Shown: positions 3,042-31,804 of the stretch, piece by piece
Numbering within the stretch: the stretch's first letter is position 1
Layout: each line of letters begins with the position of its first letter
From: an uncultured Alphaproteobacteria bacterium
Lineage (GTDB): Bacteria > Pseudomonadota > Alphaproteobacteria > Micropepsales > Micropepsaceae
Reading direction: 5' to 3'
NCBI GenBank assembly: GCA_903837555.1
Contig: CAILUV010000085.1
Location: forward strand, 1-64,000
Length of the DNA stretch: 64,000 nucleotides
The notes under the pieces: model-generated
What the model saw: the letters and a program-made list of their open reading frames with translations, nothing else
Databases searched by the model: none
Told to the model about the DNA's origin: nothing
Program-made: the position numbers and the translations under genes

Positions 3042-4316
3042 ATGCCAGAATCAGCCCGTAAAAGCTCCCGAATTTTCGCGCCTTTTGAATGGATGATCGC
3101 CGCCCGCTACCTGCGCGCCAAGCGGCAGGAAAGTTTCATTTCGGTCATCTCGCTGTTCTCGCTGCTGGGTATCGCGGTGGGCGTGGCGACCCTGATCATC
3201 GTCATGTCGGTGATGAACGGTTTTCGGGTCGAGTTGCTGCGTTCGATCCTGGGCCTGTCGGGACACATGACGGTGCAGTCCCAGATGGGCAACCTGGCCG
3301 ATTACGACGCGGTGGCGGGACGCATCCGGGCCGTCAACGGCGTGGTCAGCGCGACGCCTATCGTGGACGGGCAGGTGATGGCCAGCCAGAACGGCGCCAA
3401 TTCCGGCGTGCTGGTGCGCGGTGTGCGCCGCGAGGACCTGGCCAAGGTCACGGTACTGACCGAGAAACTGTCACCCCGCGCCCTGCAATTCTTCGAGGGC
3501 GAAGAGTCCGTTATCATCGGGCAGGGCCTGGCCAACAAGCTGGGCTTGCGGCTGGGCGCCGACATCACGCTGATCGCGCCGCGTGGCAACGTAACGCCGT
3601 TCGGTACCACGCCGCGCATCAAGACCTATCGGGTTATCGGCACCTTCCGCATCGGCAATACGCTGTACGATAACAATTACGTCTACATGCCGCTGGAGGA
3701 AGCACAGCTTTATTTCAGCACTGGCGAGGCGGTCAGTGGCATCGAGGTGATGGTGCGCGATCCCGAAGCCGATCTGCGGCTGGTGCCGGACATCCAGAAG
3801 GCGGCGGGCACGCAGATGCGGATCGTTACCTGGCAGCAGCTCAACAACACCGTGCTGCAGGCGCTGGAGATCGAAAGCAGCACGATGTTCCTGATTCTGT
3901 CGCTGATCATTCTGGTGGCGACGCTGAACATCATTTCCGGCCTGATCATGCTGGTTAAGGACAAATCCAGCGACATCGCCATCCTGCGCACCATGGGGGC
4001 GACGCGCGGCGCCATGATGCGGGTGTTCTTCATCGCGGGCGCCAGCATCGGCGTGGTGGGCACCATTCTGGGCCTGATCCTGGGCGTGTTGTTCTGCATG
4101 AATATTGAAAGCATCCGGCAGGGCCTGTCGGCGCTGACCGGCAAGACCCTGTTCGACCCGGCGATCTATTTCCTGTCGCGCATGCCCGCCCAGATGGATC
4201 CGGGCGAGGTGGCCGCCGTGGTGGTAATGGCGCTGGTGCTGACCTTTATGGCCACGCTCTATCCGTCCTGGCGCGCGGCGAAACTCGATCCGGTCGAGGC
4301 GCTGCGTCATGGCTGA
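3042..4316 (+). CDS. lolC: lipoprotein-releasing ABC transporter permease LolC/LolE
   Basis: Inner-membrane subunit of the Lol ABC transporter that extracts outer-membrane lipoproteins from the inner membrane and hands them to LolA. The 424-residue protein has one N-terminal helix (about residues 28-55, after [13 protein letters not shown]), a large periplasmic MacB-type domain, and three C-terminal helices with the FtsX-like motif [19 protein letters not shown]. It ends with the family-typical [15 protein letters not shown]. Alphaproteobacteria usually have one LolC/E protein that probably forms a homodimer, and only one permease is seen here. I chose the ATG at 3042 because homology begins soon after it; an in-frame ATG at 3006 would add 12 unconserved residues. 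The 3' end overlaps lolD by 8 bases. Confidence 0.93.
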
Positions 4317-5001
4317 GGTTCTCAAGCTTGAAGGCATCACCCGCCGCTACAAGGAGGGTGAAGGCCAGCTCGAAGTGTTCAACGAACTGTCGCTGACGCT
4401 GAAGCCGGGCGAGATCGTGGCGCTGGTGGGACCGTCGGGCGCGGGCAAGTCGTCGCTGCTGCATATCGCGGGCTTGCTGGAAGCGCCGACCAGCGGCGAG
4501 ATTTACATCGAAGGCGTTGCGACCTCGAAACTGGCCGACCAGGAACGCACCCGCATTCGCCGTGACAAGATCGGTTTCGTCTATCAGGCGCACCACCTGC
4601 TGCCCGAATTCGACGCGCTGGAAAATGTGATCCTGCCGCAGATGATCGCCGGCGCGTCACGCCAGGCTGCGGCCGTGGAAGCGCAGCGCCTTCTGGAAGT
4701 GATGGGTCTGGGCAAGCGCCTGTCGCATTTGCCGTCCAAGCTGTCGGGCGGCGAGCAGCAGCGTGTCGCCATCGCCCGCGCCCTGGCCAATCGCCCGCGC
4801 ATTCTGCTGGCCGACGAGCCCACGGGAAACCTCGACCCCCGCACCTCGGGCGGGGTGTTTGAATCCCTGATCGGCATCACCCGCAAAGAGGGTCTGGCGG
4901 CGCTGATCGCCACGCACAATTTCGAACTGGCGTCGCGCATGGACCGCGCCCTGTTGCTGCACCAGGGCAAGCTCATCGAAGGCACCCAGCTGCCGCGTTA
5001 G
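4309..5001 (+). CDS. lolD: lipoprotein-releasing ABC transporter ATPase LolD
   Basis: Cytoplasmic ATPase that powers LolC/E in lipoprotein release. The 230 residues hold all ABC motifs: Walker A GPSGAGKS (41-48), Q-loop region [10 protein letters not shown] (91-100), signature [15 protein letters not shown] (145-159) and Walker [13 protein letters not shown] (165-176), followed by an H-loop in IATHNFELA. The start overlaps the end of lolC by 8 bases, so translation is probably coupled. The length matches the family. Confidence 0.95.
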
Positions 5002-5217
5002 CCGCAGGTTTTGTTGATGCGCGCCTCCGCCGCGGTGCGGGCGTTAACGTTTGAAGCCAGTTCCCGTTAAGACCTGGGGTCTTTCAGCGACATCCGAAAC
5101 CGGAAGGCCTAGCGAAGACTTGTCTTTGCATGAGCTACCAGCGCGACCCCATCTACTGGTCCAACGCCACCCGCGTTCAAGGCAATTTGGTCACGTTTTG
5201 TTCTTGCCTTCTTGATG

Positions 5218-5232
5218 GAACACAACTAGAAC
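5218..5232 (+). promoter_or_regulatory. LexA (SOS) box, GAAC-N7-GAAC
   Basis: GAAC at 5218-5221 and GAAC at 5229-5232 are separated by exactly seven bases, the direct-repeat operator recognised by alphaproteobacterial LexA. It lies 30 bases before the start of the small membrane-peptide gene. The other perfect copy found in the window is in front of lexA itself (31790-31804), which supports this reading. The box also precedes dnaE by 220 bases and could influence it by read-through. Confidence 0.8.
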
Positions 5233-5261
5233 AAAACTCGACCAAGAGGGAGACGGCGATC

Positions 5262-5366
5262 ATGTGGATCAAGGATGCGGCGGCGGGCGCGGGGCTTATT
5301 TTGTTCATGGTGTCGGCGTTTGTCTTCACCAGCGGCGCCCATGTCTTTCTGGGTTCCAGCACCTGA
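5262..5366 (+). CDS. SOS-controlled single-helix membrane micropeptide (SidA-like architecture)
   Basis: A 34-residue open frame starting MWIKDAAAGAG, then a hydrophobic helix (about residues 10-30, LILFMVSAFVFTSG) and a short polar tail. A good Shine-Dalgarno sequence (GAGGGAG, 5246-5252) lies nine bases before the ATG, and a perfect LexA box lies 30 bases upstream. An upstream in-frame ATG at 5130 would run through the LexA box and adds no plausible protein, so I reject it. In Caulobacter the LexA-controlled 29-residue membrane peptide SidA blocks division by acting on FtsW/FtsN. The size, helix and control here are similar, but I cannot show homology. The role is inferred from the SOS box and the membrane helix only. 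Confidence 0.65.
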   Translation: MWIKDAAAGAGLILFMVSAFVFTSGAHVFLGSST

Positions 5367-5451: not shown

Positions 5452-8400
5452 ATGGCGTCTTTCGTCCATCTGCGCGTGAAAAGCGCCTATTCGCTTCTGG
5501 AAGGCGCGGTCCGCCCCAAGGAACTGGCGGATCTGGCGCGGGAGTCCGGCACGCCTGCCGCGGCGGTCACCGACACCAACAACCTGTTCGGCGTCTATGA
5601 AATCACCGAGACCCTGACCAAGGCAGGCATCCAGCCCATCGTGGGCGCGCTGCTGTCCGTGGAATTCGCGCCGCGCAGTCCGCTGCAAACCGGCTCGCGC
5701 AAGAAGCCGCCGCATGTGCCGCTCCTGGTGCAGAATGAAGTGGGCTATCAGAACCTCACCAAGCTGCTTTCGTCCGCCTATCTGGATGTGGAAACCGGTG
5801 ACTGGCCGCATGTGAAGGCCGAGAAGCTTTTCGCCCATTCCGAAGGCTTGATCGCGCTGACCGGCGGGCCGGGCGGGGCGCTGAACCAGCTTCTGCTGGA
5901 GGGGCAGAAAGAGGCCGCGGCCCTGCTGCTCGAGAAACTGGCCACCGCTTTCCCAACCCGTCTCTATGTCGAGTTGCAGCGCCACGACCTTCCGGAAGAA
6001 CGCGCCACCGAAGACGGTCTTCTGGACATGGCCTATGGCCAGAAGCTGCCGATCGTCGCCACCAACGACGTGCATTTCGGCCGCGCCAACATGTACGAGG
6101 CGCATGACGCGCTGCTGTGTATCGCCGATGGCGCCTTCGTTTCGCAGGATGATCGCCGCCGCCTGACGCGCGAACATCGCTTCAAGTCTCCGTCGGAAAT
6201 GCAGGCCAAGTTTGCCGATCTGCCCGAGGCGCTGGAAAGCACTGTCGAGATCGCGCGGCGCTGCGCTTTCAAGCCCGTGAAGCGCAAGCCGATCCTGCCG
6301 GTCTTTACGACCGAGTCTGGCCTGTCGGCGGAAGCCGAGCTCAAGGCCCAAGCCGAGGCCGGCCTCTCGCGCCGCCTGACCGGCGCGCCGCTGGCCGCGG
6401 ACCGCAAGGTCTATGACGAGCGGCTGGATTATGAGCTGGGCATCATCAATCGCATGGGCTTTCCCGGTTACTTCCTGATCGTGTCCGATTTCATGAAGTG
6501 GACACGCGGGCAGGGCATTCCGGTGGGCGTGCGTGGTTCGGGCGCCTCCTCGCTGGTGGCTTGGGCGCTGGACATCACCAACCTCGATCCTTTGCGCTTC
6601 GGCCTGTTCTTCGAGCGGTTCCTCAATCCCGAACGCATGTCGATGCCGGACTTCGATATCGACTTCTGCCAGGAGCGGCGCGACGAGGTCGTGCGCTATG
6701 TGCGCGACAAGTATGGCGCCGACCGGGTGGCGCAGATCATGGCGCTGGGTTCGCTTCAGGCGCGCGCCGCGGTGCGTGATGCGGGCCGCGTGCTGCAGAT
6801 GCCGTTGGGCTTGGTCGACCGCATCGCCAAGCTGATCCCCAACCCGCCGGGCAAATCCATTTCGCTCAAGGAAGCGGTGGAGAGCGAGCCGCGCCTGCAG
6901 CAGATTGCCGAGCAGGAGCCTCTCGCCCAACGCCTGTTCCAGATCACCGAGCGGATTGAGGGTCTTTATCGTCATGCCTCCACCCATCCGGCGGGTGTGG
7001 TGATCGGCGATCGGCCGCTGGATGAAATTCTGCCGCTGTACCGCGATCCGCGCTCCGACATGCCGGTGACGCAATTCGACTATGAGGATGCGGAAAAAGC
7101 CGGGCTGGTGAAGTTCGACTTTCTGGGCCTGAAAACCCTGACCGTCATCGCCAAGGCCGAAGAGTTGTTGAAAAAGCGGGGTGTCGATCTGCACACCCAG
7201 ACCATCGACTTTGTCGATGCGGGCACTTTCGAAATGCTGGCCCATGGCGACAGCGTCGGCGTATTCCAGCTTGAAGGCGCGGGCATGCGCGACCTGCTGC
7301 GCAAGATGAAGCCCGATCACATCAACGATCTGGTGGCGCTTGTGGCGCTGTATCGCCCGGGCCCGATGGATTCGATCCCGACTTACATCGCGCGCAAGAA
7401 CGGCAAGGAGCCGGTGGAATATCTTCATCCCGCGCTGGAGCCGATCCTCAAGGAAACCTACGGTGTGATGACCTATCAGGACGATGTCATGCGCATCGCC
7501 CGCGAGTTGGCCGGTTACACGATGGGCGAGGCCGATATCCTGCGCCGCGCCATGGGCAAGAAGATTCCGGCGGAAATGATCCCGCAGCGCCAGAAATTCA
7601 TGAAGGGCGCGGAAGAACGCAAGATCGCCCGCAACGTGGCCGAAATGATTTTCGAACAGGCCGAAAAATTCGCCGGTTACGGCTTCAACAAGGGCCATGC
7701 GGCCGCCTATGCGCAGGTCGCCTATCAGACCGCCTATCTGAAGGCGAACTATCCGGTCGAATTCCTCGCTGCCTCGATGACGCTGGATATCGGCAACACC
7801 GACCGCCTTAACATTTTCCGCCAGGAAGCCCAGCGGCTTGGCGTGAAAGTGGCGCCGCCCGACATCAATGTCAGCGAAGCGGTGTTCACCTGCGATGCGC
7901 AAGCCAACACGGTGTTCTACGCGCTGGCGGCCGTGAAGGGTGTCGGCAAGCAGGCCATGGACCATGTGGTCGAGATGCGAAAGGACGGCGGCAAGTTCAA
8001 ATCGCTGTCTGATTTTTCGCGCCGTGTCGATCCGCGGCTGGTCAACAAGCGGGCCTTCGAAAATCTGGTGCGCGCCGGCGCCTTCGACAGTCTCAACCCC
8101 AACCGCCGCCAGTTGGTGGAAAATTCCGACCGCATCCTGGGCGGCGCGCAGGCGGCGCAGCGCGAACGTGAAAGCGGGCAAGTATCGCTGTTCGGTGGCG
8201 GCGACAGCCCGGCGGAAGAGTTGCGGCTGTCGAACATTCCCGACTGGCCGGTGCATGAGCGGCTGGGCGAGGAATTCTCCGCCATGGGCTTCTATCTGTC
8301 GGGCCATCCGCTGGATTCGTATGGTCCAGCGCTGAAGCGGTTGGGCGCCTCGACCTATGCCGCGCTGCTGGAAGACCGTCGCCGTGCCGGCTTCAAGGCC

Positions 8401-8868
8401 AAGATCGCCGGCACCCTGATCAAGAAATCGGAGCGGCGCGGTCGCAACGACCAGATGTATGCCTTTGTGTCTTTCTCAGATCCCACGGGCATGTTTGAAA
8501 TCATGCTGTTCCCCGAAGTGCTGGCGGCCAGCCGCCTTCTGCTGGAAGCAGGCAAATCGCTGATCATCACGGCGTCCGCCGAATGGGATGGCGACGAACT
8601 CAAGCTGCGCGCGGCTTCCATCCTCGACCTGGATCAGGCTGCGGCGCAGGCGGGCGAGGGCATGGTGATCCGCCTGTCGGACGCCTCATCGCTGGCCGCG
8701 CTGTCGGCGGAGCTGTCGCAGGTCGGCAAGGGCCTCGTGAACATCGTGGTGCCGGGCAGTGCGGGCGAGGAAGTCGAGATCGAGCTGAAAAAGCGCATCG
8801 CGGTGAATGCCACCTTGCGCAACCGCATCGCGGCGCTGCCCGGCATCGCCTCCGTCGAAGCGGTTTAG
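5452..8868 (+). CDS. dnaE: DNA polymerase III subunit alpha
   Basis: Catalytic subunit of the replicative polymerase holoenzyme, 1138 residues, close to the usual length for DnaE1. The N-terminus is a PHP domain (FVHLRVKSAYSLLEGA, from residue 4). The palm carries the metal-binding PDFDIDF at 399-405 and the third acidic residue near 556 (VKFDFLGLKTL). The fingers and tandem helix-hairpin-helix region follow (GYGFNKGHAAAYAQVAYQTAY), with an OB-fold domain near the C-terminus. It is the replicative type rather than the ImuC/DnaE2 mutagenic type, as judged by full length, position after lolCD (a conserved alphaproteobacterial neighbourhood) and lack of imuA/imuB beside it. Its last four bases overlap the convergent aminotransferase gene. 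Confidence 0.96.
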   Translation: MASFVHLRVKSAYSLLEGAVRPKELADLARESGTPAAAVTDTNNLFGVYEITETLTKAGIQPIVGALLSVEFAPRSPLQTGSRKKPPHVPLLVQNEVGYQNLTKLLSSAYLDVETGDWPHVKAEKLFAHSEGLIALTGGPGGALNQLLLEGQKEAAALLLEKLATAFPTRLYVELQRHDLPEERATEDGLLDMAYGQKLPIVATNDVHFGRANMYEAHDALLCIADGAFVSQDDRRRLTREHRFKSPSEMQAKFADLPEALESTVEIARRCAFKPVKRKPILPVFTTESGLSAEAELKAQAEAGLSRRLTGAPLAADRKVYDERLDYELGIINRMGFPGYFLIVSDFMKWTRGQGIPVGVRGSGASSLVAWALDITNLDPLRFGLFFERFLNPERMSMPDFDIDFCQERRDEVVRYVRDKYGADRVAQIMALGSLQARAAVRDAGRVLQMPLGLVDRIAKLIPNPPGKSISLKEAVESEPRLQQIAEQEPLAQRLFQITERIEGLYRHASTHPAGVVIGDRPLDEILPLYRDPRSDMPVTQFDYEDAEKAGLVKFDFLGLKTLTVIAKAEELLKKRGVDLHTQTIDFVDAGTFEMLAHGDSVGVFQLEGAGMRDLLRKMKPDHINDLVALVALYRPGPMDSIPTYIARKNGKEPVEYLHPALEPILKETYGVMTYQDDVMRIARELAGYTMGEADILRRAMGKKIPAEMIPQRQKFMKGAEERKIARNVAEMIFEQAEKFAGYGFNKGHAAAYAQVAYQTAYLKANYPVEFLAASMTLDIGNTDRLNIFRQEAQRLGVKVAPPDINVSEAVFTCDAQANTVFYALAAVKGVGKQAMDHVVEMRKDGGKFKSLSDFSRRVDPRLVNKRAFENLVRAGAFDSLNPNRRQLVENSDRILGGAQAAQRERESGQVSLFGGGDSPAEELRLSNIPDWPVHERLGEEFSAMGFYLSGHPLDSYGPALKRLGASTYAALLEDRRRAGFKAKIAGTLIKKSERRGRNDQMYAFVSFSDPTGMFEIMLFPEVLAASRLLLEAGKSLIITASAEWDGDELKLRAASILDLDQAAAQAGEGMVIRLSDASSLAALSAELSQVGKGLVNIVVPGSAGEEVEIELKKRIAVNATLRNRIAALPGIASVEAV

Positions 8869-31002: not shown

Positions 31003-31740
31003 TCAGTAGCGACGGATCAATCCAACCAGCTTGCCCTGCACCTTGACGCGGTCTGAGCCGTAGAGCCGCGTTTCATAGGCCGGATTGGCTGCTTCCAGCG
31101 CGATGGAGTCGCCGCGGCGGCGCAGGCGCTTGAGGGTCGCTTCCTCGTTATCGACCAATGCGACGATGATTTCGCCGGTGTTGGCGGTGTCGCATTCATG
31201 GATGATCACGGTGTCGCCATCCAGGATGCCGGCGTTGATCATGGAATCGCCGGTCACTTCCAGCGCGTAATGGCTGCCCTTGCCCAGCATGCCGCCGGGC
31301 ACCGGAATGTCGTTCATCTTGTTCTGCAGCGCTTCGATGGGCGTGCCCGCCGCGATGCGGCCGACCAGCGGCACGTTGATGGCGCCTTCGCCGCCTTCGC
31401 CATAACTGCGGCGCGGGGCGGTCGAGCGGCTGTCGGCCATGCGGATATCGGTGCGGCCATGGCGGCCGGCGGCACTGCGCTGGACCTGGCTGCGGGTGGT
31501 GGCGGGCCGCACGGTCTCGGCCATGTTGTCGGGCAGCTTGAGCACTTCCAGGGCGCGGGCGCGCTTTTCCATGCGGCGCAGGAAGCCGCGTTCTTCCAGC
31601 GCGGTGATCAGGCGGTGGATGCCGGACTTGGATTTCAGGTCCAGCGCCTCTTTCATCTCGTCGAAGGAGGGTGGCACGCCGCTTTCGCGCACCCGTTCAT
31701 GGATGAACATCAGCAATTCATATTGCTTGCGGGTCAGCAT
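31003..31740 (-). CDS. lexA: SOS repressor LexA
   Basis: 245-residue transcriptional repressor and self-cleaving protease. The N-terminal winged-helix domain (1-65, [17 protein letters not shown]) is followed by an Arg-rich linker longer than in E. coli, then the S24 peptidase domain. The cleavage site is in GRIAAGTP (A131-G132), the nucleophile is S166 in VTGDSM and the general base is K204 in ATLKR. The ATG at 31740 starts exactly at the conserved N-terminus; a start ten codons earlier is unlikely. A perfect LexA box lies 50 bases upstream, so autoregulation is expected. Confidence 0.96.
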
Positions 31741-31789: not shown

Positions 31790-31804
31790 GTTCTACTTTA
31801 GTTC
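31790..31804 (-). promoter_or_regulatory. LexA (SOS) box upstream of lexA
   Basis: On the plus strand GTTC (31790-31793), seven bases, GTTC (31801-31804), which is GAAC-N7-GAAC on the lexA coding strand. It is placed 50-64 bases before the lexA ATG, where it would cover the promoter. It may also affect the divergent small secreted-protein gene. Confidence 0.85.

Follow-up and report, generated by a model that had tools for sequence, protein, structure and literature searches.

A LexA-boxed, single-helix peptide gene beside dnaE in an uncultured alphaproteobacterium is a probable sidA orthologue

The window, by which we mean the whole 64-kb stretch of DNA that was analyzed, contained a 34-codon gene ahead of dnaE whose product is probably an orthologue of the Caulobacter peptide SidA, to which its sequence is linked via intermediate families. 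Peptides of the SidA type hold a fixed address beside dnaE in at least 13 alphaproteobacterial families (the window's own family, the Caulobacteraceae, and eleven more). Judging from sequence and from the Caulobacter precedent, we consider it likely that the window peptide blocks FtsW/FtsI/FtsN-driven septation during the SOS response.

All of the features of the locus were on the plus strand. The sidA-like gene (MWIKDAAAGAGLILFMVSAFVFTSGAHVFLGSST; 34 codons and a stop, positions 5262 to 5366) was recognized by its homologues, its dN/dS ratio, and its profile links. A LexA (SOS) box of the form GAAC-N7-GAAC (GAACACAACTAGAAC; 5218 to 5232) ended 29 nt before the ATG at 5262 and was identified from its sequence, its conservation in the genus, and its match to the lexA and recA motif. 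The ribosome-binding site was AAGAGGGAG (5244 to 5252), and many relatives had GGGAG at this site. Codons 7 to 27 (5280 to 5342), which followed a conserved N-terminal W-x-K-D, were predicted to form a single membrane helix, as the hydropathy profile showed one strongly hydrophobic segment with a best 17-residue mean of 2.25. The start of dnaE, an ORF for the 1138-aa alpha subunit of the replicative DNA polymerase III (5452 to 8868), was 85 nt beyond the end of the peptide ORF. Upstream of the peptide gene were lolC/E-like and lolD-like genes; the lolD-like ABC ATPase ORF (4309 to 5001) was the upstream neighbor in most genus loci.

The promoter layout was also conserved in the genus. Specifically, an TTTTGTTCTTG element that contained a GTTC half-site was located in the -35 region (5196 to 5206), was near-invariant in most of the 12 genus promoters that were aligned, and was followed by the LexA box. 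Promoter calling on the window's own sequence gave no consensus sigma-70 promoter. When the 34-residue peptide and a 78-aa in-frame ORF starting at ATG 5130 were scanned against Pfam and NCBIfam, nothing real was found (PsbJ, with an E value of 0.11, was under its cut-off). The 78-aa version was discarded as the gene because several relatives had a stop codon a short distance ahead of the position that corresponds to ATG 5262.

A search upstream of dnaE in related genomes had been suggested in the first-pass annotation of this DNA, and we searched for the peptide in the window's genome, 24 further genus genomes, and 16 outgroups. The peptide was present in 24 of the 25 genus genomes, and the sole miss was only 74% complete. 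In all 24 genomes with a peptide match (24/24 in each case), dnaE was located downstream and GAAC-N7-GAAC was located ahead of the peptide. A second, overlapping genus set consisted of 37 loci in named contigs, mostly MAGs and mainly deposited as "Alphaproteobacteria bacterium." The box was found in 37/37 of these loci, and the peptides (35 identified automatically and two, at L251 and L264, by eye) were all before dnaE. Across loci, the gap between the peptide and dnaE was about 40 nt at its shortest and more than 550 nt at its longest, and three loci (L017, L018, and L260) had the peptide more than 450 nt away from dnaE.

The peptide was 30 to 36 residues long in most relatives. Residues W2 and D5 were invariant in the genus, and A8, G9, L12, F15, and F20 were nearly invariant. 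The earlier annotation had named the lack of a conserved peptide frame as an observation that would count against the gene; we found that the frame was kept across the genus, with a dN/dS of about 0.25 (pooled, 107 close pairs). Substitutions fell mainly in third codon positions (464/217/872 by codon position). In these alignments, purifying selection acts on the amino acid sequence of the peptide. Thus, the box, the ribosome-binding site, and the 34-residue one-helix ORF before dnaE, as originally annotated, were borne out by the sequence, the ORF list, hydropathy, and conservation in the genus.

The boxes before lexA and recA showed that this genome has a LexA system and that it uses the motif typical of alphaproteobacteria. 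The second GAAC-N7-GAAC match in the window (GAACTAAAGTAGAAC; 31790 to 31804, minus strand) was 49 nt before the start of lexA, a minus-strand gene with its HTH domain at 31552 to 31737. Because this match fronts lexA, it acts as a positive control and is not noise. In the case of recA, GAACGCCTTAAGAAC was located upstream of the gene in the window's genome and matched the LexA motif. In some relatives (L004 and L248), the 15 bases of the window's lexA box recurred as the sidA-like box.

SidA was described in Caulobacter as a 29-aa peptide of the inner membrane that is induced in the SOS response, interacts with both FtsW and FtsN, and blocks division (PMC4211646). The sidA gene is CCNA_02004 (PMC10769358), and Caulobacter dnaE is CC1926 (PMC1839093). 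Caulobacter-level genomes were located via a MipZ search with the residues of PDB entry 2xj4/2xit; a class search led to family f63, which was then searched itself. Two genomes (G678 and G675) carried a MipZ that was 100% identical to that of the PDB entry, and both had a 29-aa ORF directly before dnaE and behind GAAC-N7-GAAC. The peptide began MIRVARES[LF]ALVSV[VI], and the G675 version differed from the G678 version by two changes. A longer in-frame ORF was also visible at this locus, which was consistent with the experimental correction of the SidA start codon, for which ribosome profiling and similar data were used (PMC4117421). We took the 29-aa peptide to be the putative Caulobacter SidA by its length, position, and genome.

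A strict box and the peptide were found in 19 of the 29 Caulobacteraceae loci. Nine of the other ten loci had a matching peptide, and most of these peptides were behind a near-box such as GAACAAAACCGGAAT. Near-boxes that ended in GAAT, not GAAC, were frequent before Caulobacteraceae sidA (L219, L220, L222, L223, L226, L228, L229, and L234), and sometimes two near-boxes occurred in a row. The sequences of these near-boxes may point to tuned LexA affinity.

To cover the class, dnaE was sought in 385 alphaproteobacterial genomes, and the upstream region was read in the 145 genomes, from 71 families, that had stronger dnaE matches. The survey criterion was a LexA box, and then a short hydrophobic ORF, upstream of dnaE. 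A LexA-boxed single-helix peptide was found before dnaE in eleven families (f4, f9, f41, f57, f82, f91, f116, f121, f123, f126, and f171) besides the window's family and the Caulobacteraceae; MSEWVKDTAALFVLGAVMWSGFALTAAAQAAG from f121 and MMDWVKDAFGLATLVGLWGAFAAWGEIISTVVGG from f82 are examples. By sequence, the f123 and f116 members were the least certain. In most of the surveyed families, the interval from -500 to -150 of dnaE held no strict box.

Two further kinds of locus were seen in the survey. In f2, f25, f104, f107, f135, f148, and f155, GTTC-N7-GTTC occurred roughly between -58 and -89 relative to dnaE, and these families, which were without such a peptide, were not counted. The loci concerned were L199, L130, L151, L184, L137, L163, L208, L070, and L174, in which the motif was 58 to 89 nt before the dnaE match; it possibly indicates LexA control of dnaE itself, or it is due to chance. 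At L285, from a Beijerinckiaceae bacterium MAG, a strict LexA box (GAACAAAACAAGAAC) was 186 nt before the dnaE match, and the survey filter did not pick up a peptide there.

The relationship to SidA was examined with three profiles, which were built from the window's genus (A1), Caulobacteraceae SidA (A2), and the other families (A3). The f123 candidate MTPTGLSLIKEMCASISLLLFAGGLLTLLSALAGG was omitted from the comparison alignment because it did not show the visible motif, an omission that could flatter the profile slightly. Comparison of A1 with A3 gave a probability of 93% (P=4.2e-7), and comparison of A3 with A2 gave a probability of 95% (P=4.3e-8); in 300 column shuffles (150 full and 150 segment-preserving), neither the A1-A3 nor the A3-A2 score was ever reached. 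Direct comparison of A1 with A2 showed no significant similarity. Ungapped pair scores followed the same pattern, with z values of 9.4 for the genus versus the other families, 11.6 for the Caulobacteraceae versus the other families, and 1.2 for the genus versus the Caulobacteraceae. The best cross-family pair (MAWLKDAAAGVGLVVILVSSFVLTSAAQAFFAPG and MADWIKDTAALLVLGAVMWSGFALTAAAQAVH) scored 66, compared to a shuffled maximum of 49.

Genome searches were also performed. The A3 profile, which was built without the Caulobacteraceae, found the peptide beside dnaE in ten genomes of the Caulobacteraceae and in 0 of 14 genus genomes at E values up to 0.5. The A1 profile recovered the f121 peptides at the correct dnaE-side place with E values of 0.01 to 0.33. 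Since the direct window-to-Caulobacter comparison was not significant, the case for orthology rests on the intermediates, the shared position, and the box. These lines of evidence moved the SidA comparison in the first-pass annotation from an analogy to a probable orthology. The same intermediates and the common dnaE locus group the peptide with SidA, and the suggestion that it was possibly a new family was not supported.

By analogy with Caulobacter, LexA would sit on the box, which overlies the promoter, and keep the sidA-like gene off. After DNA damage, RecA would trigger LexA cleavage and the peptide would be made, insert into the inner membrane through its one helix, and keep the late divisome (FtsW/FtsI/FtsN) from working, which would delay septation until repair. 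We infer the induction, the membrane insertion, the FtsW/FtsN target, and the division block from Caulobacter (PMC4211646). The window's genome encoded one FtsW-like and one RodA-like protein. The idea that the peptide inhibits replication was without support, as the position beside dnaE is common to Caulobacter sidA, and SidA acts at FtsW/FtsN to block division (PMC4211646).

Other readings of the locus were weighed against this one. A chance GAAC-N7-GAAC match next to a spurious micro-ORF had to be considered because the motif is expected about 1.35 times per 64-kb window; two were found, and a single match is not unusual alone. However, the box and the frame were conserved in all readable genus loci, which refutes this reading and led us to accept the peptide gene as real. 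In addition, a sense box was found in the interval from -500 to -150 of dnaE in 28 of the 145 genomes, compared to three with the opposite orientation, and a box was found inside dnaE in 0 of 37. We therefore give chance next to no credence. A role as leader peptide or upstream ORF, in which translation would adjust dnaE expression in response to DNA damage and the product would be incidental, is also very improbable. The constant location before dnaE would fit such a role, as would the finding of no terminator-like site in the gap that separates the genes, but the selection on the amino acids, including the invariant W2 and D5, and the variable gap to dnaE make it unlikely, and the Caulobacter counterpart works when it is expressed from a plasmid (PMC4211646).

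A different possibility is that the peptide is a SidA homologue that, in the window's clade, acts on another membrane target, such as an energy or transport function, in the manner of TisB or DinQ, and slows growth instead of septation. The helix is strongly unlike that of Caulobacter SidA, and the direct comparison was not significant. DinQ, a single-helix peptide under SOS control, is known to act on membrane functions (PMC3567139). Nevertheless, the locus and the box are the same as those of sidA, the intermediates provide a sequence link, and the window's genome encodes an FtsW homologue. We regard this alternative as unlikely.

The reading that we favor, a SidA orthologue that arrests septation, fits into a broader proposal on which our confidence is evenly divided. 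In this proposal, the dnaE-side LexA-boxed peptides are an ancient alphaproteobacterial SOS checkpoint family whose single locus has stayed next to the replicative polymerase in at least 13 families, while the helix changed along with its divisome target and may have switched partners between clades. The family itself was already known, and what is new here is its breadth and its fixed address; we found no description of SidA outside Caulobacter in the accessible literature. The distribution across 13 families suggests that alphaproteobacteria have long had one-helix division arrest in common as a component of their SOS response. A LexA box and a micro-ORF before dnaE also provide a simple rule for finding genes that are easily overlooked, and the diverged inhibitors are a natural series with which to map the way one helix brings the FtsW/FtsI/FtsN machine to a halt.

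Among the known systems, SulA of the gammaproteobacteria resembles the proposed function in that it is an SOS-induced agent of division arrest. SulA is soluble, is far larger, and inhibits FtsZ. YneA of Bacillus and SosA of Staphylococcus are described as SOS-induced membrane division inhibitors, with FtsW as the target of YneA; these are Gram-positive proteins from other locus contexts, and they are likened to the window peptide by description and not by sequence. DidA of Caulobacter (CCNA_03212) is also induced by damage, has a single helix, and inhibits division at the FtsW/I/N stage, but it is a 71-aa, SOS-independent, DriD-activated protein from another locus (PMC4211646), whereas the window gene is LexA-boxed and has 34 codons. 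DidA was therefore rejected as the identity of the window peptide. In the case of SidA, the differences are in length (34 residues in the window peptide versus 29) and in sequence (W-x-K-D-A-A-A-G versus R-x-A-R-E-S-L-A-L). The FVWMM stretch of Caulobacter is missing from the window's clade, and the target surface may thus differ. The two peptides are alike in having a LexA box, about 30 residues, a charged pair near the N terminus, one membrane helix, and a gene immediately before dnaE.
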